Shown: piece by piece, positions 5,317-23,538 of the stretch
How positions within the stretch are numbered: position 1 is the first letter of the stretch
How the letters are laid out: every line of letters starts with the position of its first letter
Virus record (IMG/VR): IMGVR_UViG_3300010413_000176
Span: 1-23,538 of that record
DNA from: a virus
Direction: 5' to 3' (one strand)
DNA: 23,538 nt
Notes under the pieces: model-generated
Databases searched by the model: none
What the model saw: the letters and a program-made list of their open reading frames with translations, nothing else
What the model was told of the DNA's origin: nothing
Position numbers and translations under genes: made by a program

Positions 5317-6672
5317 ATGCCAGTCTACGAGCTTCGTAGTGGAAAGCCAGGAGAAGCACACTATACGCCATATGGAGTGATACGAGAAGCCATCCTATGC
5401 CATGATCCAGAGCTCATGGTGACTGGGCCGGCAGACACTGGCAAGAGCATCGGGATGCTCAACATGCTCCATATGAACGCAATCAAGTATCCTAATTCGT
5501 CTCTAGTCATTGCACGCAAAACCTTAACAAGTGTACATGCTACAATCCTACAGACCTACTTGCACAAGGTTCTCACACCAGAGGACATCAGCAGCAAGTT
5601 TGTCAACATCTACGGCAACAACAAGCCTGAGTGGTTCCAATATGCCAATGGATCGCGGATCTGGGTCTCTGGACTGGATCGTCCAGAGAAGATCCTATCA
5701 GCAGAGCACGACTTGATATACGTCGCGCAGGCCGAAGAGATCACCTTGGTTGACTGGGAGACGCTGACAACTCGTGTGACAGGGCGTGCAGGACACATGC
5801 CTTTTCCGCGCCTCGTTGGTGACTGTAATCCCGCCTCCCAGTCACATTGGGTGTTGCAGCGGAACAAAGCAGGGCACTTGACCATGTTCTATTCTCGCCA
5901 TCAGGACAATCCCGACCTGTACGATCAAGAAACAGGTCAGATCACACCAGAGGGAGAACGTAGACTTGGACGGCTCAAGCGGCTGACCGGCCACCGCTAC
6001 AAGCGCCTGTATCTCGGCCTCTGGGCACCACCGGAGGGAGCGATCTTCGATATGTACGACGAGGACGTACACAAGGTCGTACACTTTGTACCACCGTCCA
6101 CGTGGCCGAGGTTCGTGGGGATAGACCCGTTCGGGGCCAAGATTGCAGCGGTCTGGATCGCATATGATCCAAAGGGAGCTGCCCTGCACGTGTATCGAGA
6201 ATACGTCCAACCATTCGGCGTGACCACGGGAAAGCACGTCGAGCAGATCCTGGATATGTCGGGGTACGGGCCTACCGGACAACCCAGACCTGGGCAAGCC
6301 GAAGCCATCTTTGCTTGGGTTGGGGGTGGACCATCCGAGCGACAGGCACGGCTAGACTTTTCAGGATACGGCATACCGTTGCAGCCGTCGCCGATCAAAG
6401 ATGTGTGGGCTGGCATTGACCGGATCGCGGCGTTGATGCGTGAGGGGAGCCTGTTCATACACGACAACTGTGTGGAGCTTTTGTCTGAGATCGGGGAGTA
6501 TCGGCGCAAGCTGGACAACAAGACTGGGGAGTACACAGACACGATTGAGGCAAAGGACTCTTACCACACGATCGACAGCTTGCGCTACATCCTCTCCTGG
6601 CTGACTGGATCAGGTGAGGAGACAAGGACCACCATCATTGACCGATCGATACCGATCGGCCCGAGGTTGTGA
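5317..6672 (+). CDS. terL: Terminase large subunit (ATPase-nuclease)
   Basis: A 451-residue protein, a usual size for TerL. The N-terminal ATPase has Walker A GPADTGKS (37-44), a Walker B-like segment DLIYVAQAEE (132-141) with the catalytic acid at E140/E141, and a coupling motif GDCNPASQSHW (168-178). The C-terminal RNase H-like nuclease starts at RFVGIDPFG with D270 and ends at DSYHTIDSLRYIL with D414 and D420 as likely metal ligands. It drives DNA into the prohead through the portal and cuts the concatemer. It follows TerS after 6 bp and precedes the portal module. Confidence 0.93.
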   Translation: MPVYELRSGKPGEAHYTPYGVIREAILCHDPELMVTGPADTGKSIGMLNMLHMNAIKYPNSSLVIARKTLTSVHATILQTYLHKVLTPEDISSKFVNIYGNNKPEWFQYANGSRIWVSGLDRPEKILSAEHDLIYVAQAEEITLVDWETLTTRVTGRAGHMPFPRLVGDCNPASQSHWVLQRNKAGHLTMFYSRHQDNPDLYDQETGQITPEGERRLGRLKRLTGHRYKRLYLGLWAPPEGAIFDMYDEDVHKVVHFVPPSTWPRFVGIDPFGAKIAAVWIAYDPKGAALHVYREYVQPFGVTTGKHVEQILDMSGYGPTGQPRPGQAEAIFAWVGGGPSERQARLDFSGYGIPLQPSPIKDVWAGIDRIAALMREGSLFIHDNCVELLSEIGEYRRKLDNKTGEYTDTIEAKDSYHTIDSLRYILSWLTGSGEETRTTIIDRSIPIGPRL

Positions 6673-7051: not shown

Positions 7052-7127
7052 CCTATGGTGGGCTGGACTTTCCTTTGTTGAATGGGGGTTATTGTTGCTG
7101 AAAGGGGAGCACGAGGAACAGACATGA
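6963..7127 (+). CDS. Trp-rich 54-residue protein, copy 2
   Basis: The ATG is at 6963 behind AAAGGGAAG. The product is 54 residues, with CYTWYWIKGAFWHTAMASSH followed by GALRNLWWAGLSFVEW and the tail LLKGEHEEQT. Shared positions with copy 1 include WY, AxW, LRNLWWA, SFxEW and LKGE. Every matched landmark is displaced by exactly 275 bp, showing a tandem duplication. Its TGA overlaps the portal ATG (ATGA at 7124), which supports real translation. It overlaps the membrane protein gene in another frame over 6963-7051. Confidence 0.7.
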   Translation: MPECYTWYWIKGAFWHTAMASSHIWGALRNLWWAGLSFVEWGLLLLKGEHEEQT

Positions 7128-8938
7128 CACTACGAACCCAGCTCGCTGACTGGCTTGCACCACAGCGGGTACAAGAAACGCTGAAACTCGAAAAGGAACT
7201 CGAAAAGACCCGCTCCGATGCCATTGCAATGACCTCTGCCCTGGCAACATTCGGGGACATCCTACGGGATACCGTCTCTGGTGTCCCCCTCGTCCCCAGC
7301 GAGATCGCATCAAAGCTCACTGAGGGCGGTGTAGATGAGGTCATCCTGCAGCAGCTCATCTACCAGCTTGGGTACGACCAGCTTTCCTCTCTCTCCTCCA
7401 CAGTAGACGAATCGGGACAGGAACGGGAGGCCCTCGTCAAGCAGGCCAGGACCATGTTCAAGTACTCCCCGCTGGTCCAGTTCTCGATCTGGTTGTGGAC
7501 GGGGTGGGGACTGGGGGACCGGATCACTATCACTCTGGAGAATGACCAGGCACAAAAGATCTGGGACGAGTTCTGGACTGCCGAACGCAACGAGTCCATC
7601 TTTGGTGCTGACCAGATCCACGAGCTCTCCGACTGGCTGCTGGTCAACGGCAACCGGTTTGTGGCCTTGTTCACGGCCACCAGTGGGGAGAACGCCGGCC
7701 AGACGACCGCGCGCATTTTGGACCAGGACGAGGTGACACCTATTGCCAACCCGGAGGACCGGCTTGACGTGTGGTTCTACAAGCGGGCCGTAACGACCAC
7801 CACGGGCATAGGCGGAGATACATACTACTACCCCGACTACAAGACGGCGATGGGTGACGGGGGACTGCTGGAAAAGCGATGGGCTACCCTGCTACAGAAA
7901 AAGGTGGTGTCTGACCGCGATAAGCGGGCCGATAAGCTCAAGGCCGGCACGACGGTCTGTATCTTCCACGTCGCACACAACCAGAAGGACGAAAAGTCAC
8001 CGCTGGGCTGGCCGCTGACCACGACCTCGGGCGCGTGGGTACGGGGCCACAAGCAGTTCAGCGAGGCACGTCTTGGGGTGGCGATGGCGATCGCGCAGTT
8101 CGTGCGCCGGTCAAAGGTGCAGGGAGGAAGCCGTGCGGTCAAGTCGGTGATTGCACAGGTAGCGTCTACCCTGTCGCGCAACAACTACCTGGACAGAAAC
8201 CCTCCTGGCGCTGCTGGTTCAACGCATGTAGAGAACTCAGCCGTGGACACCGAAGAACTCCCCATGCGCACCGGGGCCAGCGATGCCAAGGACGACAATG
8301 CGATGTTCTCGTGGATGGCACTGTTGGGAATGGGCCTCTTCCCGACGTCTGCCGGTCTGGATACCTCCCGCTGGGCAACCGCCGTTGAAATGGACAAGGC
8401 CCAGAGTATGATCTTTGAGCGGTACCAGCGTTTCTGGACGGCACAGTTCAAGAAGCTGGTGAGGATCGTCCTGATGCTTGAGAGCAAGTATGGTGCCGTC
8501 AAGCTGACAGTTGAGAAGACCATCGCTGACATCAGCACGGACTCGTTCTCCCTGTCCGACTACCCGGCGGTCAGCAAGTCTGTGGCCGACCAAGTGGACA
8601 AGATGCTGACGCCCTATGTGGAGAAGGGTCTGATCAAGGACGACACGGCGAGGCAGCTCCTGGCGATGCTGTGGCGGATGTCCACCGATGCCCTGGGGAG
8701 TGGTGTGAGCAGGGACCTGACCACACCGGAGGCGTTTGGCGTAGGCGACGAAGAGGAGGCACCGGACAACAGCGAACCCGCAGTCGGTGACGAGGAGGAC
8801 GAGGTAGAGCCCGGTATGGAGGAGCTACAGGGGAGGCAGTTCGCACAGGCACTACGTAGTCTACAGCTTGGGGAGACCACACCGGCGCAGTTTGCAGAGT
8901 GGGCTTTTGAGGTGGTGGGTGATGCCATCGCTAGCTGA
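7124..8938 (+). CDS. Portal protein
   Basis: A 604-residue protein. The start at 7124 (ATGA overlap, GAGG upstream) is preferred over an in-frame ATG at 7082. The N-terminus has a short coiled coil (ETLKLEKELEKTR). A core typical of portals follows: YSPLVQFSIWLWTGWGLGD, TLENDQAQKIWDEFW, ELSDWLLVNGNRFVALF and VAHNQKDEKSPLGWP, leading to a long helical stem and a C-terminal acidic tail (GDEEEAPDNSE, GDEEDEVEPG). Portals form the dodecameric DNA gate at one capsid vertex and dock the terminase. The position right after TerL and before a MuF-type gene supports the call. Confidence 0.88.
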   Translation: MTLRTQLADWLAPQRVQETLKLEKELEKTRSDAIAMTSALATFGDILRDTVSGVPLVPSEIASKLTEGGVDEVILQQLIYQLGYDQLSSLSSTVDESGQEREALVKQARTMFKYSPLVQFSIWLWTGWGLGDRITITLENDQAQKIWDEFWTAERNESIFGADQIHELSDWLLVNGNRFVALFTATSGENAGQTTARILDQDEVTPIANPEDRLDVWFYKRAVTTTTGIGGDTYYYPDYKTAMGDGGLLEKRWATLLQKKVVSDRDKRADKLKAGTTVCIFHVAHNQKDEKSPLGWPLTTTSGAWVRGHKQFSEARLGVAMAIAQFVRRSKVQGGSRAVKSVIAQVASTLSRNNYLDRNPPGAAGSTHVENSAVDTEELPMRTGASDAKDDNAMFSWMALLGMGLFPTSAGLDTSRWATAVEMDKAQSMIFERYQRFWTAQFKKLVRIVLMLESKYGAVKLTVEKTIADISTDSFSLSDYPAVSKSVADQVDKMLTPYVEKGLIKDDTARQLLAMLWRMSTDALGSGVSRDLTTPEAFGVGDEEEAPDNSEPAVGDEEDEVEPGMEELQGRQFAQALRSLQLGETTPAQFAEWAFEVVGDAIAS

Positions 8939-9860: not shown

Positions 9861-10136
9861 ATGACCACATTCACACCAGAAGAGGAGCAGATTCATACTG
9901 CACTCGCTGATCTGCAATCACAAATGGATGACCTACACGGACAGATCTACGATCTTAGGGAACAGCAAGATCTGATCCGCGGACAGTGCAAGCACGGTAA
10001 GATTAGAACCGCACATTTGCCCACAGGCAGCACTTATGCGCGCTGTGAGATCTGCGATCGTGAGTGGTGGGACTGGGAAGGCGGGATGCCGGAAAGTGTA
10101 CTAGAGGAGGAGAGGCAGCATGCTAACCCGTCGTGA
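9861..10136 (+). CDS. Coiled-coil protein with a C-terminal zinc-finger-like motif
   Basis: A 91-residue protein. The start at 9861 follows GGGGAGGAAAC; a longer frame from 9822 runs into the previous gene. Residues ~5-45 form a coiled coil (LADLQSQMDDLHGQIYDLRE), followed by CKHG and CEICDREWWDW, which could bind one metal. This coiled coil plus treble-clef layout is common among small phage proteins of unknown role. It overlaps the next gene by 17 bp. Confidence 0.7.
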   Translation: MTTFTPEEEQIHTALADLQSQMDDLHGQIYDLREQQDLIRGQCKHGKIRTAHLPTGSTYARCEICDREWWDWEGGMPESVLEEERQHANPS

Positions 10137-10593
10137 CTTTCTCAGGGGCCTGCTTGCTACCGCCGGTGCTGCAATGGTGGCACGGAATGGCATCTTGCAG
10201 CCGACAGAAGAGGTCAAGCAGGTAGAGCAGGACACTGCGCGTCCAGACCGTACCATCTTCGACATGGCGCAGAATACGTGGCGGCAAGACATGTTCCAGG
10301 CAGGATACCAGACTGCCGAGATGTTCATAGAGGGGATCGATGGAAGCGTCTATGTCAACACTGGCACACTGCCTATCAACTTTGAATCTCCTGTCTATGT
10401 GGACCAGAGAACTGGAAAACTTGTCCCTTTAGAATACATAAAGCGACCTGTCCAAAACGCTAGTCGCTATAGTTTTTTTGGCTATATCATAGCATCAGAA
10501 ACAGTGTTAGTCCACTTTAATTCTGACACACCAGCGGATCAGCTACGACCCAGCGATGTGATCTACACATGTGAAAGCTGGATAGACGCTTAG
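10120..10593 (+). CDS. Tat-signal protein of unknown function
   Basis: A 157-residue protein with GAGGAGGAGAGG before the ATG. The N-terminus MLTRRDFLRGLLATAGAAMV matches the twin-arginine signal almost perfectly (T-R-R-D-F-L-R plus a mildly hydrophobic core). There is no clear AxA cleavage site, so the signal could remain as an anchor. The mature part starts with a charged linker (EEVKQVEQDTARPDR), then MFQAGYQTAEMF and beta-rich segments. I recognise no enzyme family and see no cofactor motif, although Tat substrates normally fold before export. It lies in the head operon and overlaps the previous gene. Confidence 0.75.
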   Translation: MLTRRDFLRGLLATAGAAMVARNGILQPTEEVKQVEQDTARPDRTIFDMAQNTWRQDMFQAGYQTAEMFIEGIDGSVYVNTGTLPINFESPVYVDQRTGKLVPLEYIKRPVQNASRYSFFGYIIASETVLVHFNSDTPADQLRPSDVIYTCESWIDA

Positions 10594-15119: not shown

Positions 15120-16313
15120 ATGACAATCAGTAGACGTCTACTTCGGGCAATGTGCGAGAACTACGTCGGTGAGCTGTCAGACCAGTACAAGCAAGCCAAC
15201 GCCGTTGCCATCGCCGAGAGCGGTCAGCCAAAGTGGGCACCCGAAAAGGTCAACGGGCGATTGCAGGAAGTACGCGATCGCCTTGCCCTGATCGACGCTG
15301 CACTCTCTGGCATCTCGCCAACGAGCCCCAACAACGTGCTGGTCCAGGAGACCATGACAAGTGGCGACTTCACAAACGCGATCCAGTCGTTTGTCAACCG
15401 CCTGTCTATCCCTGGGTACCAGAAAAAGAACTTCGCATTCGAGCCACTGGTCTGGAATGATACCCTGACCAACTTCCTGACCCACGACCGTTACCAGCAT
15501 CGGGACTCGATCGACGACTTGGAACTCGTGGGCGAGAAGGGGCGTGCCCGTCCAGGATCCAAGGACGACGCGACACATCGGGCGTACGCCGTGTACCGCT
15601 GGGAGAAGCAGTACGACTTCTCGTGGGAGCTCATCCGCAACGACGATATGGGCTACTTTATGGACCAGGCACAGCTGATGGGTGAGTCTGCCCGTCGAAC
15701 GCTTGAGAAATTCGTCAGCCGGATGTACACCAACGCCACCAGTATCGCACGGATGACCGGTCTCGGTGCGTTGTACTCTACCACGGGGCGTCTGACCTCT
15801 GCCCGTGTGAGTGCTGCACGAATGGCCTACAACCAGCGTGTGGACTCTCGCAACCAGCCGATCAACGCACGCCTGGCCTACGTTGTGGGTCACTCTGGTC
15901 TGATGGACACGGCGATGCAGATCCTACAGTCGGAGCTTGTGCCTGAACTCGCTACCAATGGCGTGAACGTGGCACGCAACTTCCAGTGGATTGAGGACCC
16001 GTACATCACCGGCACTGCACCCAACCTGCCGTGGTGGGCCTTCCCGGACTGGCGAGAGAACAACATCCGTCCATTTGTCCTGGCACGGCTTGAGGGGTGG
16101 CCTGCACCGCGGATCTTCCGCAAGCGGTCGGACATCGAGGCCGTCAGCTCTATGCTGGGTGCAGGGGCAGCCGTGGATCCGATGATGGGCGACTTTGACA
16201 GCGGCAACATCGTGCTCAAGGTCGTGGACATCTTCGGGACCTACGTGGACGGGACCGAGGGCAGCTACTTTGACTTCCGTGGTGGCTACTACTCTGCGGG
16301 AACGGCCCCGTAG
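15120..16313 (+). CDS. Major capsid protein, HK97-fold likely
   Basis: A 397-residue protein with AAAAGGAG before the ATG, a typical size for an HK97-fold capsid subunit. A helical N-terminal segment (RLLRAMCENYVGELSDQYKQ) may be a delta-like domain. A long mixed body follows with YRWEKQYDFSWELIRNDDMG (E-loop/P-domain-like), a spine helix region QAQLMGESARRTLEKFVSRM, and a C-terminal beta part ending FDFRGGYYSAGTAP. The downstream position after protease, scaffold and decoration is the standard order. The fold is inferred from order, length and pattern. Confidence 0.8.
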   Translation: MTISRRLLRAMCENYVGELSDQYKQANAVAIAESGQPKWAPEKVNGRLQEVRDRLALIDAALSGISPTSPNNVLVQETMTSGDFTNAIQSFVNRLSIPGYQKKNFAFEPLVWNDTLTNFLTHDRYQHRDSIDDLELVGEKGRARPGSKDDATHRAYAVYRWEKQYDFSWELIRNDDMGYFMDQAQLMGESARRTLEKFVSRMYTNATSIARMTGLGALYSTTGRLTSARVSAARMAYNQRVDSRNQPINARLAYVVGHSGLMDTAMQILQSELVPELATNGVNVARNFQWIEDPYITGTAPNLPWWAFPDWRENNIRPFVLARLEGWPAPRIFRKRSDIEAVSSMLGAGAAVDPMMGDFDSGNIVLKVVDIFGTYVDGTEGSYFDFRGGYYSAGTAP

Positions 16314-16799: not shown

Positions 16800-17735
16800 A
16801 TGCTTCTAACATACTCGGAACCACCCATCATCAAGTTGCGGCCTTTTTACGGCGGACAGATGGGTGTACCCGGTTCGGAACCACCGGAGGGTATCCGGTC
16901 TGCGTCCCAGTCACTCGTGTACTACGTGGACGCTGCACATCCTGACGCCAGTGACACTAATGATGGGACGGATCCAGAGGCACCCCTGGCGACGATCCAG
17001 CGGGCGATCACCCTGAACAATGCCACCATCAACTGGGCATCGACGCCTCCGTACAAAGGTATGAACTGGATCGTGATCATGCCGGGGGCCTATGCCGAGA
17101 ACCTGACGCCGCCGTACTACTGCCGCGTGGTCGGTCGTGGGCTGGCAACGGGAAACACTACGGACATCTGCGTGGACGTTCACCCGACGGCTGGATCGGC
17201 ACTCGCAGGAACGGGTCTTGCGTGTCACTGGTACAACATCCGCTTTACGACCGACACGGCGGTCCCAGTCATCGACTTTGACACGATGAACTCGTGCATC
17301 TTTGAGAACTGCGCCATCACGGACGGGAACCCAGGGCTGGCCACGGTCGGCATTGACACGACGGGGGCAAACTCGAGTTGGATCGTAGGGTGTGTGTTCA
17401 AGGGCAATAGCAACCCGTTGACGATCGGTATCCGGTCAACCGGAAACTTCTACTCTTGCCGGGTCATAGACTGCGAGATCTGCGCGGTAACAACGGGGAT
17501 TGATCTCTCTGGTGCGGCCCTGTGTGGAAACTCCATTGCACACCGAAACCGGATCTGGGGTGGTGGTGCGGTTCTTCTGGGCACCGGGATTGATGATTCT
17601 GTAGTTGGGGATCTGCTGTGTACCGGCAACTGGATCACTGCGACGGATGCAATCAACCACGCCGACGCGACCATGACGATCGATAACCACGTCCAGAACG
17701 CTGGTGTGGGAGCGATCGAGACCGCCGGCACATAG
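16800..17735 (+). CDS. Right-handed beta-helix virion protein A
   Basis: A 311-residue protein with AGGAGGG before the ATG. The N-terminal ~75 residues contain GQMGVPG and YYVD, then DGTDPEAPLATIQRAI, the opening of DUF1565/pectate-lyase-like right-handed beta-helices. The rest repeats short coils (NSCIFENCAIT, SWIVGCVFKG, FYSCRVIDCEI, LCTGNWIT) with Asn and Cys ladders. It shares its N-terminal module with the next gene. Such proteins act as phage spikes or fibres that bind or cut surface glycans; no catalytic residues can be assigned. Confidence 0.8.
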   Translation: MLLTYSEPPIIKLRPFYGGQMGVPGSEPPEGIRSASQSLVYYVDAAHPDASDTNDGTDPEAPLATIQRAITLNNATINWASTPPYKGMNWIVIMPGAYAENLTPPYYCRVVGRGLATGNTTDICVDVHPTAGSALAGTGLACHWYNIRFTTDTAVPVIDFDTMNSCIFENCAITDGNPGLATVGIDTTGANSSWIVGCVFKGNSNPLTIGIRSTGNFYSCRVIDCEICAVTTGIDLSGAALCGNSIAHRNRIWGGGAVLLGTGIDDSVVGDLLCTGNWITATDAINHADATMTIDNHVQNAGVGAIETAGT

Positions 17736-17748
17736 ACGAGGAGGCACT

Positions 17749-18849
17749 ATGCCAAGTGCAGACGTACGATGGGTGCCTGCGCCTCTAGTTCGGTTCAAGA
17801 CTCTGTTTCCAGGGCAGATGGGTGTTCCTGGTACTGACAATGAAAATGGTCTACGTACAGACTGCGAAGGTACAGTTTTCTACGTTGACCGTAACGCGGT
17901 TGGCGTGTCGGATGGACGCGACGGCACAGACCCAGAGGCCCCGCTTCGGACGATCGGTGCAGCCCTGACCCACTGCCAGGCGTACCGCAACGACGTGATC
18001 GCCGTGATGATGAACGGGGACTGGATCTACTCCGACCCTGCACAGGGCCGGTTTGCATCCGTCTCCGAGCAAGTAACGGTGGACGTTGCCGGTGTGCGTA
18101 TCGTCGGTGTGGCACCGTCCAGTTCCCTGGGTGTCCCGTGGATGTGTACGGCGAACAGCGGCGTGGCGATCACGGTCACTGCAATGGACGTGGTGATCGA
18201 GGGGTTCTGCTTCTGGAATGACAACTATACCGGATGCACGGCAATCCTGGCGACGTGGGATGGGGTGACGGCGTTTGCCGACAACCTGATCGTCCGCAAC
18301 TGCTTTTTCTACGACGAGTTGCTGATCGGCATCGACCTGGACTACTGCTACAACAGCTACGTGGAGGACTGTTACTTCCAGAGGCTGACCACGGCGATCA
18401 ACAACAACGGGACGAACGGTGACCCCGACTGGCTGGTAGTGAGGCGCAACATCTTTACCGGTTGTACCACAGCCATCGACCTGGATGACGTTTCCTATGC
18501 TGTCGTGGAGGACAACGAGATCATTGACTGTCCAACGGGTCTCTCGTTCAACGGTGCCAGTCTGTGCAAGGTCAAGAACAACACGATCAACACTACGGTG
18601 TCGGCGGGCGTTGTGGCCATCGACGGAGCAGGCAACCAGGAATGTGTCATCTGTGGGAACGTCCTGAACGGTGACCCGACCGGGACCAACAACCTGATCG
18701 ATCTGACGGGTGGCGGAAGCAACATGGTGGCGGATAACTGGCTCTCGTGTACCATCGCACAGTATGACGTTACCTGTTCGGATGCCACCAGTGGGGCGTG
18801 GGTGCGTAACCACTGCATTGATGCAGAAACGGCTGCCAACCCGGTCTAG
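17749..18849 (+). CDS. Right-handed beta-helix virion protein B
   Basis: A 366-residue protein. The ATG at 17749 follows GAGGAGG; a longer frame from 17704 lies inside the previous gene. The N-terminus (FKTLFPGQMGVPGT, FYVD, DGTDPEAPLRTIGAAL) matches protein A, while the helix coils differ (DNLIVRNCFFYDELLIGIDL, SYVEDCYFQR, LVVRRNIFTGC, AVVEDNEIIDC, CKVKNNTIN). The shared N-terminus is probably the attachment module and the helix the variable host-facing part. Function as a surface-binding spike is inferred. Confidence 0.8.
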   Translation: MPSADVRWVPAPLVRFKTLFPGQMGVPGTDNENGLRTDCEGTVFYVDRNAVGVSDGRDGTDPEAPLRTIGAALTHCQAYRNDVIAVMMNGDWIYSDPAQGRFASVSEQVTVDVAGVRIVGVAPSSSLGVPWMCTANSGVAITVTAMDVVIEGFCFWNDNYTGCTAILATWDGVTAFADNLIVRNCFFYDELLIGIDLDYCYNSYVEDCYFQRLTTAINNNGTNGDPDWLVVRRNIFTGCTTAIDLDDVSYAVVEDNEIIDCPTGLSFNGASLCKVKNNTINTTVSAGVVAIDGAGNQECVICGNVLNGDPTGTNNLIDLTGGGSNMVADNWLSCTIAQYDVTCSDATSGAWVRNHCIDAETAANPV

Positions 18850-18857
18850 GAGGGACT

Positions 18858-19043
18858 ATGGACGCAATCACCAAGCGACTTGCAGACAAGATCGGGGATG
18901 ACGAACTAGCAGAGATGCTGGTCATCGCAGGGGTCAAGTACCCCGGTCAGATCCGGCGCATGTCCAACTCGGACCTCAAGGCAGTCCTGGGATCCACCAG
19001 TCTGGTCAACGTCGTCCGAGGGAAGATCAGAGCCAAGCAGTAA
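18858..19043 (+). CDS. Hypothetical small helical protein, helix-hairpin-helix-like
   Basis: A 61-residue basic protein with GGAGGGAC before the ATG. It is entirely helical, and the segment LVIAGVKYPGQIRRMSNSDL followed by KAVLG resembles a helix-hairpin-helix or SAP-like unit. No firm family. It lies between the beta-helix genes and the sugar-modification genes. Confidence 0.6.
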   Translation: MDAITKRLADKIGDDELAEMLVIAGVKYPGQIRRMSNSDLKAVLGSTSLVNVVRGKIRAKQ

Positions 19044-19064
19044 CAGTAGCACAAAGGGGAGACA

Positions 19065-19775
19065 ATGGAAGAGAACCAGAGACACGTACACATTGCGGTA
19101 CTCACGCAGGGCCACATACGCTACGAGCTTGCCAACTGGCTCCTGGGCCTGGTCAACACCAAGGCGTGGGGATTGGCAGCACAGCACAGACGGCCCTTCT
19201 CTGTCGTGTTCTACGAAGGGCGATCTCGAGAAGGTCGCCCTGTTTCGTCCAATAGGAACAGGATCATCCGGGACCGCCCTGCAGGATCGGACTTGATTAT
19301 GATTGACGCGGACGTGATCCCGCATCCTGACCTGTTTGAGATTGCACTACAGCCAGACAAGGACGTGATCATCTGTCCGACGCCGATCTGGAGAGCAGAG
19401 GGGAACATCCTTTGCCCGGCACGTCCCAACCTGAACGGGACACCGGAGAATCAGATCATTGCTCTCGGACTGGACACGTACACGGAAGTGCTCGAGGGTG
19501 GGACGGGAGCGATCTACATCTCCCGCGAGTGCCTGGGGCACCCAGATATGCACGCACCTTTCCAATTCCAGATGGGGGATGACGGGACAACCTTGATCGG
19601 AGAGGACTACACCTTCTGTGACAAGGCACGCGCGGCGGGGTTCAAGATCTGGACAGCCAACAAGATCCTCTGTGGGCACTACCAGGACGTCAACCTGTTG
19701 ACGGTGATGCAGCGGTTCCACGAGGTAGCGGAGATTGCAGAACTCGAAAAGAACCTGGCAGAGGAAGCACTATGA
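19065..19775 (+). CDS. Glycosyltransferase, GT-A (GT2-like) fold
   Basis: A 236-residue protein with AAAGGGGAG before the ATG. The N-terminus HIAVLTQGHIRYELANWLLG is a Rossmann-like opening. NRNRIIRD (residues 63-70) and DLIMIDADVIPHPDLF contain the DxD motif D81-A-D83 that binds metal and the sugar nucleotide. GGTGAIYISRECL and GEDYTFCDKARAAGFKIW fit the acceptor side and catalytic acid region. Such enzymes transfer a sugar from a nucleotide donor, but the sugar and acceptor cannot be read from sequence. It overlaps the sulfotransferase gene by four bases. Confidence 0.82.
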   Translation: MEENQRHVHIAVLTQGHIRYELANWLLGLVNTKAWGLAAQHRRPFSVVFYEGRSREGRPVSSNRNRIIRDRPAGSDLIMIDADVIPHPDLFEIALQPDKDVIICPTPIWRAEGNILCPARPNLNGTPENQIIALGLDTYTEVLEGGTGAIYISRECLGHPDMHAPFQFQMGDDGTTLIGEDYTFCDKARAAGFKIWTANKILCGHYQDVNLLTVMQRFHEVAEIAELEKNLAEEAL

Positions 19776-20452
19776 CTGAGTTTGCTTTCTCCTATCCGAC
19801 AGCGCGCAAGCTACAGGTCATCGTCACCGGAACAGGCCGAAGCGGGACGGGGTATGCCGCCAAGTGGTTGTCGTCCGTAGGCATCCTGTGTGGGCACGAG
19901 GTATTCTTTGACTACCAGGGTCTGCCGGCAGCACTGCTACGGTTGAGGACACGTTTGCATCGTCTTGTCGGGGATTCGTCCTGGCAGGCGGCGCCGCATT
20001 TGGACTCGGAGCCACTACGGGATGCGCTGTTGATCCACCAGGTTAGGCATCCCAAGCGAGTAGCAGAGTCCTGTATGCGGGTTCCACCGGGTAGCACGCC
20101 AATGTACCTGGACTACCTGGAGAGGCACCTGCCGTACTCCAAGGAGTTCGACAACGATCTGGACAAGGCCATCTGCCGGTGGATTCACTGGAATAGGCTG
20201 ATCGAGTCCCACTACCCACAGCATGATACCATTTTCTGGAAGGTAGAGAACGGGACGGATGGCCTGTGGAATATGCTGGTCACACGGGGCTTGGTAGATC
20301 CGGAGCGGATCACCAAGGCCGTGTGTTTCAGCAACACCCACTACAACCATAAGGTGGGTGAACCAGTAGAGGCCCATCTGGAGGACGTTGCACAGGCGCT
20401 CAAGGGCGATCTCATTGACTTGATGGGACAGTATGGGTACAACTGGGAGTAG
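19772..20452 (+). CDS. Sulfotransferase (PAPS-dependent family)
   Basis: A 226-residue protein starting in an ATGA overlap with the glycosyltransferase. VIVTGTGRSGTGYAAKWLSS (residues 16-35) is the 5'-phosphosulfate-binding loop, and HQVRHPKRVAES places R92 and S100 in the R-x7-S spacing of the 3'-phosphate site. CGHEVFFD (40-47) gives a candidate catalytic His42. These enzymes move sulfate from PAPS to a hydroxyl, often on a sugar. Coupling to a glycosyltransferase suggests it sulfates the glycan made there. A P-loop kinase is the alternative, but R-x7-S argues against it. Confidence 0.78.
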   Translation: MTEFAFSYPTARKLQVIVTGTGRSGTGYAAKWLSSVGILCGHEVFFDYQGLPAALLRLRTRLHRLVGDSSWQAAPHLDSEPLRDALLIHQVRHPKRVAESCMRVPPGSTPMYLDYLERHLPYSKEFDNDLDKAICRWIHWNRLIESHYPQHDTIFWKVENGTDGLWNMLVTRGLVDPERITKAVCFSNTHYNHKVGEPVEAHLEDVAQALKGDLIDLMGQYGYNWE

Positions 20453-20454
20453 AC

Positions 20455-20718
20455 ATGCCACACAGCGTAAACGTAATGGTGAGCAGCGAATCAGACGGGA
20501 CAACCAGGAACAATGTTCCCGACTGGCTGATCCATTTTGACGTAACCTGGGTTGACGATTCCGGGGAACTGCACCGGCGAACGGAAGACGAGTACTTCCT
20601 ACTGCTCCTGAACTGGTTGAGACAGAACTACCCACAGAGAGCACGAGAGATAATGGAGGAGCTCGCTTTCAAGATTGCACGGGCAAAGTACGGTGTGGAC
20701 GCCGAGATGATAGGCTAG
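20455..20718 (+). CDS. Hypothetical small protein
   Basis: An 87-residue protein. GGGAG lies eight bases before the ATG, within the end of the sulfotransferase gene. A beta-rich N-terminal half (NVMVSSESDGTTRNNVPDWL, IHFDVTWVDDSGELHRRTED) is followed by a helix (YFLLLLNWLRQNYPQRAREI). No family is recognised. The tight spacing keeps it in the sugar-modification operon. Confidence 0.65.
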   Translation: MPHSVNVMVSSESDGTTRNNVPDWLIHFDVTWVDDSGELHRRTEDEYFLLLLNWLRQNYPQRAREIMEELAFKIARAKYGVDAEMIG

Positions 20719-20726
20719 GAGGAAGC

Positions 20727-21005
20727 GTGGCAGAGATCCAGAGTATACCCGAGTTCTACACGGACCAGATCGTCGAAAACGGTGTCACCCGTGACATCTA
20801 CATGCACGTACGTGTGATCCTGGCGGGTGGTGACCCGGCGGGCGAGTGGCACTACTTCGGTACAGAGGTACCACCAGAGCACGAGGGAGCAGTGGAACAC
20901 GCACCAGTTCACTTTCCAGCGGCCACGCTCATGCTCGGCGATCAGGATGAAAGCCTCTTTTACGACCTGGGGCTACTGGCTGCCAAGAACCAGATAGAGG
21001 CATGA
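20727..21005 (+). CDS. Hypothetical small protein, GTG start
   Basis: A 92-residue protein starting with GTG at 20727, five bases after AGGAGGAA. It is beta-rich and His/Glu-rich (IYMHVRVILAGGDPAGEWHY, PPEHEGAVEHAPVHF) and may fold as a small beta-barrel. No family is recognised. It lies between the sulfotransferase and the third beta-helix gene. Confidence 0.65.
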   Translation: MAEIQSIPEFYTDQIVENGVTRDIYMHVRVILAGGDPAGEWHYFGTEVPPEHEGAVEHAPVHFPAATLMLGDQDESLFYDLGLLAAKNQIEA

Positions 21006-21056
21006 CGAGAGATCCACGCGCTGCCGGTCTGGGAGTGGTCGATACCGTGTGATGGG

Positions 21057-21203
21057 ATGGTCTATCACATGGTCGTCCATAGGTGGATAGAAGGACCGGG
21101 GTGTGGGGTAGTGCAAGAGCTACCAGAGAGCTTGCCTTTCCCGATAGAGTGGTTGTGGAGCGTGATTGTAAAAGACGGGCTACCGTTCTCGTTGAAGGAT
21201 TGA
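21057..21203 (+). CDS. Small protein, possibly frame-broken at its 5' end
   Basis: From the ATG at 21057 the product is 48 residues (MVYHMVVHRWIEGPGCGVVQ, then ELPESLPFPIEWLWSVIV and a KDGLPFSLKD end). The same frame is open back to 21006 and reads as good protein (REIHALPVWEWSIPCDG), but it has no standard start. The ATG at 21002, with GAGG just upstream, is one base out of frame. A one-base change near 21005 would give a 67-residue gene, so this may be an indel, a sequencing error or a frameshift. The stop lies one base before the next gene. Confidence 0.5.
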   Translation: MVYHMVVHRWIEGPGCGVVQELPESLPFPIEWLWSVIVKDGLPFSLKD

Positions 21204-21204
21204 G

Positions 21205-22698
21205 ATGACAGTATACGTTGTAGGTCCTGGTGGGCACGATGGAAACTCGGGGAGAACTTGGCAGACGCGCCTCGCTACCCTGAACGGTGCAGAGGACAAG
21301 CCAGTTGTCCCTGGTGATACCGTCTATGTGGCACCTGGGGCCTACCGGGAATCTCTCACAGTGGACGTGTCCGGGACGGCTGCCAAGCCGATCACCTACA
21401 TCGGAGACGTGACCGGAGAGCACACGGACGGTGTCGGGGGCATTGTGCGGATCACGGGGTCCGACAATGACCAGACGCTCACCCGTACCAGTTGTATCAA
21501 CGCCACCTCGAAGGACTATCGGACGTTCCGTGGGTTCATGATGGACACGGCGACGATCCTGATTGACATATCCAGTTCGGACTACTGGACCATAGAGGAC
21601 TGCGCTCTCTGGCGGGATACCGACAACTGTATCGACGCGGACGGGACGTCTACCAATCTGGTTGTACGCCGGTGTATTATGACCGGACGACACGCTGCAC
21701 GAACGATGTACATCATAAACGCCCCGGCAATTGACAACACGGGCGATGTGGTAGAAAACTGTATCTTTTTCAGCGGTCGTGCTGTCAGGATTGACGGTGC
21801 TGGCGATGTCCAGGTCAGGAACTCTCTTTTCATCGGGTCGGAATACGGTGTCCGCACGGGAAACGCAAATGCAGGACACGAGACAGATGTAAGGAACAGC
21901 ATCTTTACGGGATGTTCTATTGCTGTTCGTGGAGAGGCTGCAGGGCAACTCACAGAGGACTACAACACCTTCTACATCAACTCCACGGATCGGTCCAACG
22001 TGAACGTGGGGGCGAACTCGAACGCATACACGATTCTTTTCCAGCCTCCACTACGGAATGCTGGCGTGCTCCAGCAAAGTGGGTACCGCCTTCCCTGGTG
22101 GTTCAGTGACCTGTCCCAGTGGTCACAGATCGCACAGATCACGGGCGATGGGAACGAGCCGACGGTAGACTTTTTTGGCCAGCGCAGGCCGTACACACAC
22201 GGGGGGCCTATTTCTGCCCTGTGTAGCTGGGGCACCACACAGCGGGACGATTTTCAGCGGTCCGATATACGGGCATACGATGGGAACTTGAGCGTGCTCG
22301 TCCGCAAGGCACAGAAGACGAGGATTTTCGTACCCGGCATCTCGAACGTCCAGACCACGATCAGCGCACGGGGGTACAGGACGGCTGGTTATGGAGGACA
22401 CCGCAACCCGGAGATGGTCATCAAGCAACCAGGGCAGGCTGACCGAAGGACTGTCCTCGGTGGTGCTGCCGGGGCATGGGTACAGGGGTCGGACACGTTC
22501 ACGCCAGCAGCCAACCCGCATTGGTTGGAAGTGGAACTGTGGAACTTGTGTGATTTCACGACCACGACCACGGTCTCCACGACCTCGACCACGACACAGA
22601 GCACCACGTCTACGACAACGCAGACGGTGAGCACCTTGACGACGACGACAACTACACTGGCGTGTGATGTATGGTGGGATGATTTGCAGGTAGCGTAG
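21205..22698 (+). CDS. Right-handed beta-helix protein C with Thr-rich loop in a C-terminal beta-sandwich
   Basis: A 497-residue protein. Residues 1-35 (VYVVGPGGHDGNSGRTWQTR, then TLNGA) open a beta-helix of the DUF1565/pectate-lyase type. Coils follow to about residue 265 (WTIEDCALWRDTDNCIDADG, LVVRRCIMTGR, DVVENCIFFSG, VQVRNSLFIGS, TDVRNSIFTGC). The last ~150 residues form a beta-sandwich like a carbohydrate-binding module, ending LACDVWWDDLQVA. A 33-residue Thr/Ser-rich insert (452-484) lies between its last two strands, between two cysteines. It lacks the N-terminal module of proteins A and B. A glycan-binding virion or secreted protein is likely. Confidence 0.78.
   Translation: MTVYVVGPGGHDGNSGRTWQTRLATLNGAEDKPVVPGDTVYVAPGAYRESLTVDVSGTAAKPITYIGDVTGEHTDGVGGIVRITGSDNDQTLTRTSCINATSKDYRTFRGFMMDTATILIDISSSDYWTIEDCALWRDTDNCIDADGTSTNLVVRRCIMTGRHAARTMYIINAPAIDNTGDVVENCIFFSGRAVRIDGAGDVQVRNSLFIGSEYGVRTGNANAGHETDVRNSIFTGCSIAVRGEAAGQLTEDYNTFYINSTDRSNVNVGANSNAYTILFQPPLRNAGVLQQSGYRLPWWFSDLSQWSQIAQITGDGNEPTVDFFGQRRPYTHGGPISALCSWGTTQRDDFQRSDIRAYDGNLSVLVRKAQKTRIFVPGISNVQTTISARGYRTAGYGGHRNPEMVIKQPGQADRRTVLGGAAGAWVQGSDTFTPAANPHWLEVELWNLCDFTTTTTVSTTSTTTQSTTSTTTQTVSTLTTTTTTLACDVWWDDLQVA
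22558..22656 (+). repeat. Thr/Ser codon repeat (mucin-like tract)
   Basis: These 99 bases encode 33 residues, of which 23 are Thr and 5 Ser, with Gln, Val and Leu as the only others. At DNA level they are imperfect ACN triplet repeats, mostly ACG and ACC, with GACGACGACGACA near the end. The tract interrupts a beta-sandwich domain, so it should form an exposed flexible loop. Triplet repeats can change in length by slippage while keeping the frame. Confidence 0.9.
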
Positions 22699-22716
22699 TA
22701 AGACAAAGGGGAGAAC

Positions 22717-23538
22717 ATGAAAGCAGCGATACTGACGGACTTCAAGTCCCACGATCCGGCATACAGTCTATGTGGGGTCGTGGCAAACCAGGTCAAGATG
22801 TTCACGGAAGTGGGCAAGAAAGACCTGATCGTGGTGGTCAATGTCGGGTTCAATGATGACGAGGCGTACAGCCCGGCAAAGATCGTGAGAGTAGACCCCG
22901 GTCAAACGGGGAGCAATACGGTCGAGGTTACAGACCAGTCTGCGGCCGAGATCGAGCACCTTACCAAACAACTGCTAGATGCGTTCATAGGGGTAGGGGT
23001 CGTACTGACACACGACCTCATCTACCAGCCCAACCAGTGGAAGTACCACGTCGCTGCTCGACGGGTGGCAAAAGAGCGACCAGACATCAAGTGGTTGCAC
23101 TGGGTCCACTCGGCGACGGACATGGGGGTCAGGGAACAGACAGGACCATACCAGCAGGAACTGGCAGGACCGTTTCCCAACTCCAAGCTGGTGGTGATGC
23201 ACCAGGAGGAGCGGATGCGAAAACTGGCAGCGTTCGGCTACCGGCCACACCAGTCCGTGATCATTCCCAACCCACTGGACATCGTGGAGGGATACCACCC
23301 CATCGCCAGACAGATCGTAGAGGACAACGACCTGTGTTACGCGGACGTGGTACTGTTCTACCCGTGTAGGCTGGACAGGGGAAAGCAGCCACATATCCTG
23401 GTGGAAATTGCAGAGGGGTTGATGTCCCTGGGCCTAGATGCACGGGTCGTCATTGCCGACTTTCACAGTACCGCGGGGGACAAGGCTATCTACCGGGACG
23501 AGATGCGGGAGCAGGCAGCGATGGCAGGCGTCCCGTTG
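22717..23538 (+). CDS. Glycosyltransferase, GT-B (GT4-like), 3' end outside window
   Basis: The ATG at 22717 follows AAGGGGAG; 274 residues are visible with no stop. The N-terminal domain has VVANQVKMFTEVGKKDLIVV and THDLIYQPNQWKYHVAARRV, then IKWLHWVHSATDMG. NSKLVVMHQEERMRKLAAFG and VIIPNPLDIVEGY follow, typical of the inter-domain region of GT4 enzymes. The C-terminal domain begins with VLFYPCRLDRGKQPHILVEI, the usual GRLxxxKG-like nucleotide-sugar domain start. It probably builds a glycan with the GT-A enzyme upstream. The E-x7-E motif would lie beyond the window. Confidence 0.82.
   Translation, partial: MKAAILTDFKSHDPAYSLCGVVANQVKMFTEVGKKDLIVVVNVGFNDDEAYSPAKIVRVDPGQTGSNTVEVTDQSAAEIEHLTKQLLDAFIGVGVVLTHDLIYQPNQWKYHVAARRVAKERPDIKWLHWVHSATDMGVREQTGPYQQELAGPFPNSKLVVMHQEERMRKLAAFGYRPHQSVIIPNPLDIVEGYHPIARQIVEDNDLCYADVVLFYPCRLDRGKQPHILVEIAEGLMSLGLDARVVIADFHSTAGDKAIYRDEMREQAAMAGVPL

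Follow-up and report, generated by a model that had tools for sequence, protein, structure and literature searches.

A glycosyltransferase and a sulfotransferase encoded among phage virion genes, and fused in other phages, as a candidate system for sulfated virion glycans

The window analysed here spans a virus record in full (23,538 bases), which is probably part of a larger genome. It contains glycosyltransferase (GT) and sulfotransferase (ST) genes in the neighborhood of the following genes and features.

5317-6672, plus strand: terminase, upstream of the GT/ST genes and on the same strand
7082-8938, plus strand: gene at the portal position, conserved in relatives and without a Pfam match
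15120-16313, plus strand: major head (capsid) protein; PHROG head families, E 1e-23; homologues in 15 records
16800-17735, plus strand: repeat protein 1 (beta-helix family), homologous to beta-helix protein 2; candidate acceptor or capsid decoration
17704-18849, plus strand: beta-helix protein 2; PF13229, E 3.4e-12; present in most related phages
18858-19043, plus strand: 61-aa protein, immediately 5' of the GT/ST genes in the window and in the two related fusion phages
19065-19775, plus strand: predicted GT-A glycosyltransferase, 236 aa; DxD at 19305-19313, ED at 19602-19607, His at 19677-19679
19772-20452, plus strand: predicted PAPS-dependent sulfotransferase (ST), 226 aa; 5'-PSB motif GTGRSGT at 19829-19849, R92 at 20045-20047, S100 at 20069-20071
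19772-19775, plus strand: ATGA stop/start overlap of GT-A and ST, from the ORF coordinates
20455-20718, plus strand: small protein; no relative found in Pfam or the related contigs
20727-21005, plus strand: small protein; no relative found in Pfam or the related contigs
21205-22698, plus strand: third beta-helix-like protein; PF13229, E 0.007
22558-22659, plus strand: Thr/Ser-rich mucin-like tract TTTTTVSTTSTTTQSTTSTTTQTVSTLTTTTTTL at the end of the third beta-helix protein; candidate O-glycosylation acceptor
22717-23538, plus strand: probable GT-B (GT4-like) glycosyltransferase, 274 aa, open at the contig end; weak PF13439 match and GT4-like motif VLFYPCRLDRGKQ

The extents of the GT-A, ST and GT-B genes and the four-base overlap between the first two, as given in the first-pass annotation, were confirmed from the ORFs. 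Its description of the locus as a virion operon is also supported, since the terminase and capsid genes lie on this strand as well and four related contigs are syntenic. Judging from the ORF arrangement, the ATGA overlap probably couples translation of GT-A and ST, and most of these ORFs have a purine-rich stretch directly 5' of the start codon. The real start of beta-helix protein 2 may be at 17743, and repeat protein 1 is found downstream of the capsid gene in most related phages. Relatives of the 61-aa protein were detected by phmmer in both fusion phages (E 2.6e-6 and 2.4e-5) and also in L087, L089 and L096. Inside the virion gene block, the product of 10120-10593 has a predicted twin-arginine (Tat) N-terminal signal, MLTRRDFLRGLLATAGAAMVA (PF10518, E 3.5e-4, slightly below the cut-off), which is unusual for a phage structural region. 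The best relative of the capsid protein in the phage database belongs to Methanoculleus virus L4768/Blf4 (25% identity), and a capsid search across bacterial genomes found no host.

The product of the second gene had been read as a sulfotransferase from its two PAPS-binding motifs. Family searches with this protein were equivocal: the match to Pfam Sulfotransfer_3 (PF13469, E 0.1) reached 13.3 bits against a cut-off of 27, and a sequence search of the PDB gave no match. The identity was settled by the fold search. The AlphaFold2 model (pLDDT 91.5) retrieved sulfotransferases as all of its first eight Foldseek matches, and its best 50 PDB matches (VIA rows) were likewise all sulfotransferases (Z 10.8-13.6), among them CurM, Ols, TPST, SgdX2, Cpz8, SULT, 3-OST and NDST. 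Since the best fold matches are sulfotransferases, a kinase identity is ruled out and the original reading is borne out. Both motifs proved invariant in an alignment of 44 homologues, namely G20, T21, G22, R23, G25 and T26 of GTGRSGT (residues 20-26) and R92 and S100 of R-x7-S; R92 and S100 are conserved, as are S70 and W140, even though these four residues are absent from the pattern used to find the homologues. On the basis of modelled fold and PAPS motifs, we consider that this protein is a true PAPS sulfotransferase in its predicted activity. Its score below the PF13469 cut-off indicates a divergent subfamily, and therefore it is classed at the level of fold and superfamily only. The cellular PAPS sulfotransferases CurM ST, Ols ST, TPST-1/2, SgdX2 and heparan sulfate 3-OST share with it the fold and both PAPS motifs, at about 10-21% identity, whereas the phage subfamily is distinguished from the cellular enzymes by an invariant GHE, a D[S/A]S segment, a shorter length and frequent fusion to a GT.

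Searches of viral contigs with ST, GT-A or the terminase as single proteins found no relatives, nor did tblastn of ST against 50,697 phage records. Homologues of ST were gathered with a degenerate DNA pattern combining the GTGRSGT P-loop and GHE; the GT-A alignment was too variable for use in scanning. The pattern retrieved 62 viral stretches, all encoding ST homologues, and only 16 stretches, 13 of them profile-supported, across 257 Gb of genome contigs from bacteria and archaea. On these sequence counts the subfamily looks enriched in phages, the pattern being derived from phage sequence and the collections differing in how long their contigs run. In the viral contigs, we compared 104 ORFs located up to 2 kb from ST with 93 from the same loci that lie 4 kb or more from it. 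Glycos_transf_2 was matched by 6 of the 104 neighbors and Glyco_trans_1_2 by 4, and other GT families occurred besides, giving at least 10 GTs; among the matches listed for the 93 distant ORFs (25 of 28 families) there was no glycosyltransferase. Fisher's test gives p 0.0018 for 10 versus 0, on the assumption that no protein is matched by both families (one is GT-A and the other GT-B), and p 0.03 for 6 versus 0 with Glycos_transf_2 alone. Head and tail proteins were also found among the ST neighbors.

In the case of the first gene, the DAD motif on which the GT-A assignment was originally based (residues 81-83) is accompanied by ED at 180-181 and by H205, and D81, D83, E180, D181 and H205 are all invariant in eight homologues, which upholds that assignment. 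The match to Pfam Glyco_tranf_2_3 (E 3.4e-5) was under Pfam's cut-off, and the best match of the GT-A profile to PDB sequences was STIV A197 (E 4e-4). The fold was read from the N-terminal half of the homologous GT::ST fusion protein L009, which is about 40% identical to the GT-A of the window; the fusion model has a mean pLDDT of 75 with local stretches below 50, and its GT part is of moderate confidence. This half matches STIV A197 (Z 13.6) and the GT domain of LH3 (Z 12.8), and also hyaluronan synthase and polysaccharide synthases, with Z 11-13.6 covering A197, LH3 and hyaluronan synthase; the C-terminal half matches sulfotransferases. Read from this model, the product of 19065-19775 is a predicted GT2-like GT-A glycosyltransferase. 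Its weak phage matches are mycobacteriophage GTs, including gp12 of phage Dove.

The GT-B gene is the least secure member of the set. It does lie, as the first-pass annotation stated, after the third beta-helix gene, and its ORF stands; the identification was not firmly supported (PF13439, E 0.041), no PHROG, PDB-sequence or phage match was found, and no homologue was present in the related phages (four contigs compared). Since the window is the entire record and the contig stops there, the gene lacks its end, and the C-terminal half of the protein lies beyond the contig. From its sequence, it is probably a GT-B, GT4-like glycosyltransferase. Similarly, the third beta-helix gene is indeed upstream of GT-B but has weak Pfam support, and its product has no homologue in the four related contigs. 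The Thr/Ser tract of this protein ends 57 bases upstream of the GT-B start and belongs to the only ORF with a 40-aa stretch of more than 55% Ser/Thr in five related contigs; such a mucin-like tract is absent from the four related contigs compared.

Fusions of the two enzymes were found in several phages. In L018 and L009 both domains are in one protein of 449-450 aa (GT, E 1e-42 and 6e-39; ST, E 7.5e-57 and 1.3e-55, respectively), and the same GT-ST order occurs in L022, L053, L033 and L054. L026 has the reverse order, ST-GT, with a homologous GT-A, and L005 places a different GT2 domain after ST. In a FastTree phylogeny of ST domains, whose deep branches carry no support test, the fusions occupy several separate branches. 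Because the order can be reversed and a second GT type is used, a single origin of the GT/ST association is unlikely. Low dN/dS values between L018 and L009 (0.18 for the fusion, 0.125 for GT and 0.21 for ST, with 0.14 for the capsid) indicate that both domains are under purifying selection. The proposed functional coupling of GT and ST is well supported by these fusions in both orders, and we think it quite probable that both enzymes work one after the other on a single glycan.

The capsid proteins encoded in the records of L018 (G005) and L009 (G004) share 65-67% identity with that of the window, and therefore the three records belong to the same phage group. They share the order capsid, 143-aa protein, beta-helix proteins, 61-aa protein, and GT plus ST, the last two being split in the window and fused in G004 and G005; in G004 putative connector, tail and tape-measure-like genes come after the fusion. 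Joint conservation of the genes, whose failure had been named beforehand as grounds for refutation, extends in these phages to fusion. The anticipated linkage to beta-helix genes was found in these two related phages and did not extend to the others: the module is absent from G001 and G002, whose capsid is 76% identical, and from the other related records of the capsid search, several of which are fragments. Its absence from most related phages indicates that the module is dispensable and, because of these relatives without it, the GT/ST locus is regarded as a site for optional cargo, set between the head genes and the connector genes. The L033 record, in which neither the capsid nor the terminase protein of the window has a match, carries the fusion 1.4 kb after a major head protein, followed by a nucleotide-sugar epimerase, and the L053 fusion lies close to a minor tail protein. 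In the window, in the two related fusion phages and in L033 the GT genes lie inside the virion gene block.

Other gene contents were observed in these phages. At the same site between beta-helix and downstream genes, L096 (7538-10140) has a beta-helix-like ORF, a P-loop ORF and a clear GT4; the P-loop ORF is only weakly sulfotransferase-like (PF13469, E 0.0094) and was not counted as an ST. Upstream of the terminase, G001 (about 17986-20670, L074) encodes a TAGT-type GT (PF20691) with a second, adjacent PF20691 match and, beside it, a UDP-galactopyranose mutase, which was checked in this record; TAGT-type GT matches are also upstream of the terminase in G002. These TAGT genes are a different glycan cassette. 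Genes of the PAPS reductase family (PF01507) occur in G001 (39680-40156) and G004 (52492-52974); they were dropped as a source of PAPS, since members of this family also serve other functions, and the module is missing from one of the two carriers.

Virion glycosylation by viral enzymes has precedents. STIV A197 is essential and possibly modifies the STIV capsid (Turriviridae review, PMC10551542). It resembles the protein studied here in being a viral GT-A domain, the best match to it by both fold and PDB profile, but it belongs to an archaeal virus, has no sulfotransferase domain, and its capsid acceptor is a proposal (PMC10551542). Capsid glycosylation by phage GTs is established in mycobacteriophages (PMC12363180), where virion glycosylation of Che8, Corndog and Myrna is attributed to Freeman et al. 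2023, and the GTs of Corndog are set among its virion genes (PMC4351075). These phages, like the one in the window, encode their own GTs, and the Che8 glycosyltransferase Q855A2 is among the BFVD fold matches; unlike here, no sulfotransferase is mentioned in the parts of these accounts consulted (PMC12363180, PMC4351075). Cluster J mycobacteriophages have a GT-rich insertion of 8-10 genes between capsid and head-tail connector, described in 2013 with targets stated to be unknown (PMC3706429). The Dove gp12-gp21 cassette has the same placement relative to the capsid gene, and its relatives of GT-A, including gp12, lie directly after the capsid and before the head-tail adaptor, among other GTs. 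It differs in having a methyltransferase and a kinase-like protein, and a search of eight Dove proteins gave no sulfotransferase homologue. In the open-licence papers searched, no case of phage glycosylation with a coupled or fused sulfotransferase was found. Phage virion glycosylation is thus already known; what looks new is the step carried out by a sulfotransferase, together with the bifunctional enzyme.

We propose that soluble GT-A would use a host nucleotide-sugar as donor to glycosylate a concurrently produced virion protein, most likely the capsid or a beta-helix surface protein, or would extend a glycan on such a protein, and that ST would then transfer sulfate from host PAPS to that sugar. 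The translational overlap of the two genes here and their fusion in relatives would keep both activities together. GT-B may add a further or second glycan, and the Thr-rich tail of the adjacent beta-helix protein would be an obvious candidate target. This two-step modification of the phage's own virion proteins seems to us reasonably likely, and the position of the genes makes a virion protein a fairly likely acceptor. We infer the sugar and the order of the steps as given, and the effect might be negative charge, altered adsorption or protection.

The main rival is that the module alters a glycan of the host cell surface (O-antigen, capsule or S-layer glycan), for example blocking superinfection. 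Phage GTs often act in seroconversion; moreover, synthesis of bacterial surface glycans begins at the cytosolic face, where soluble enzymes could participate, and some viral contigs have sugar-nucleotide enzymes encoded close to ST. However, the module sits in the virion gene block and not in a lysogeny or moron region, a placement seen again in L033, whose capsid gene is different; membrane-type hydrophobic segments are absent from GT-A, ST and GT-B, and no flippase or Gtr-type gene was recognised adjoining the module. We therefore regard a host surface target as unlikely. The repeated fusion and adjacency of ST and GT, in both orders, points to a sugar as the ST acceptor and argues against direct sulfation of tyrosine or another residue of virion proteins, with the GT performing a separate step at another site. 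This possibility draws on the rank of TPST-1 and TPST-2 among the best fold matches (Z 12.3-13.2) and on the invariant acidic residue of GHE, shortly after the P-loop, at the position of the catalytic Glu of TPST; CurM and Ols score at least as high as TPST, and direct sulfation appears improbable. DNA-modifying phage GTs are well known, and the two module-less relatives carry TET-associated-type GTs (PF20691), in G001 together with UDP-galactopyranose mutase, upstream of the terminase, so one might suppose that GT glycosylates a hydroxylated base and ST sulfates the sugar, as a defence against restriction. Yet no base-hydroxylating or hydroxymethylating family is among the Pfam matches of the fusion carrier G004, Tet_JBP was not found in eight records in a search run without a positive control, the GT is structurally closest to STIV A197, LH3 and polysaccharide synthases, and the module is located among capsid genes, which makes DNA modification very improbable.

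The occurrence of both enzymes fused in related and unrelated phages suggests a coat of sulfated sugars that some phages would add to their own particles. The broader idea that bifunctional GT-ST enzymes are a recurrent phage class, assembled several times independently from a phage-enriched ST subfamily and building anionic sulfated-sugar virion coats by a coupled two-step reaction, is more tentative, and we hold it to be not quite an even bet. If true, it would account for a set of phage sulfotransferases that otherwise lack an assignment; the role of phage sulfotransferases was called unclear in a 2023 paper. GT fusion and head-gene placement give a specific alternative role, in which phage sulfotransferases finish glycans, probably on the virion. 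Single-chain GT::ST enzymes would then be available for study, and phages could bear sulfated surface glycans, with consequences for adsorption, stability and recognition by other organisms.
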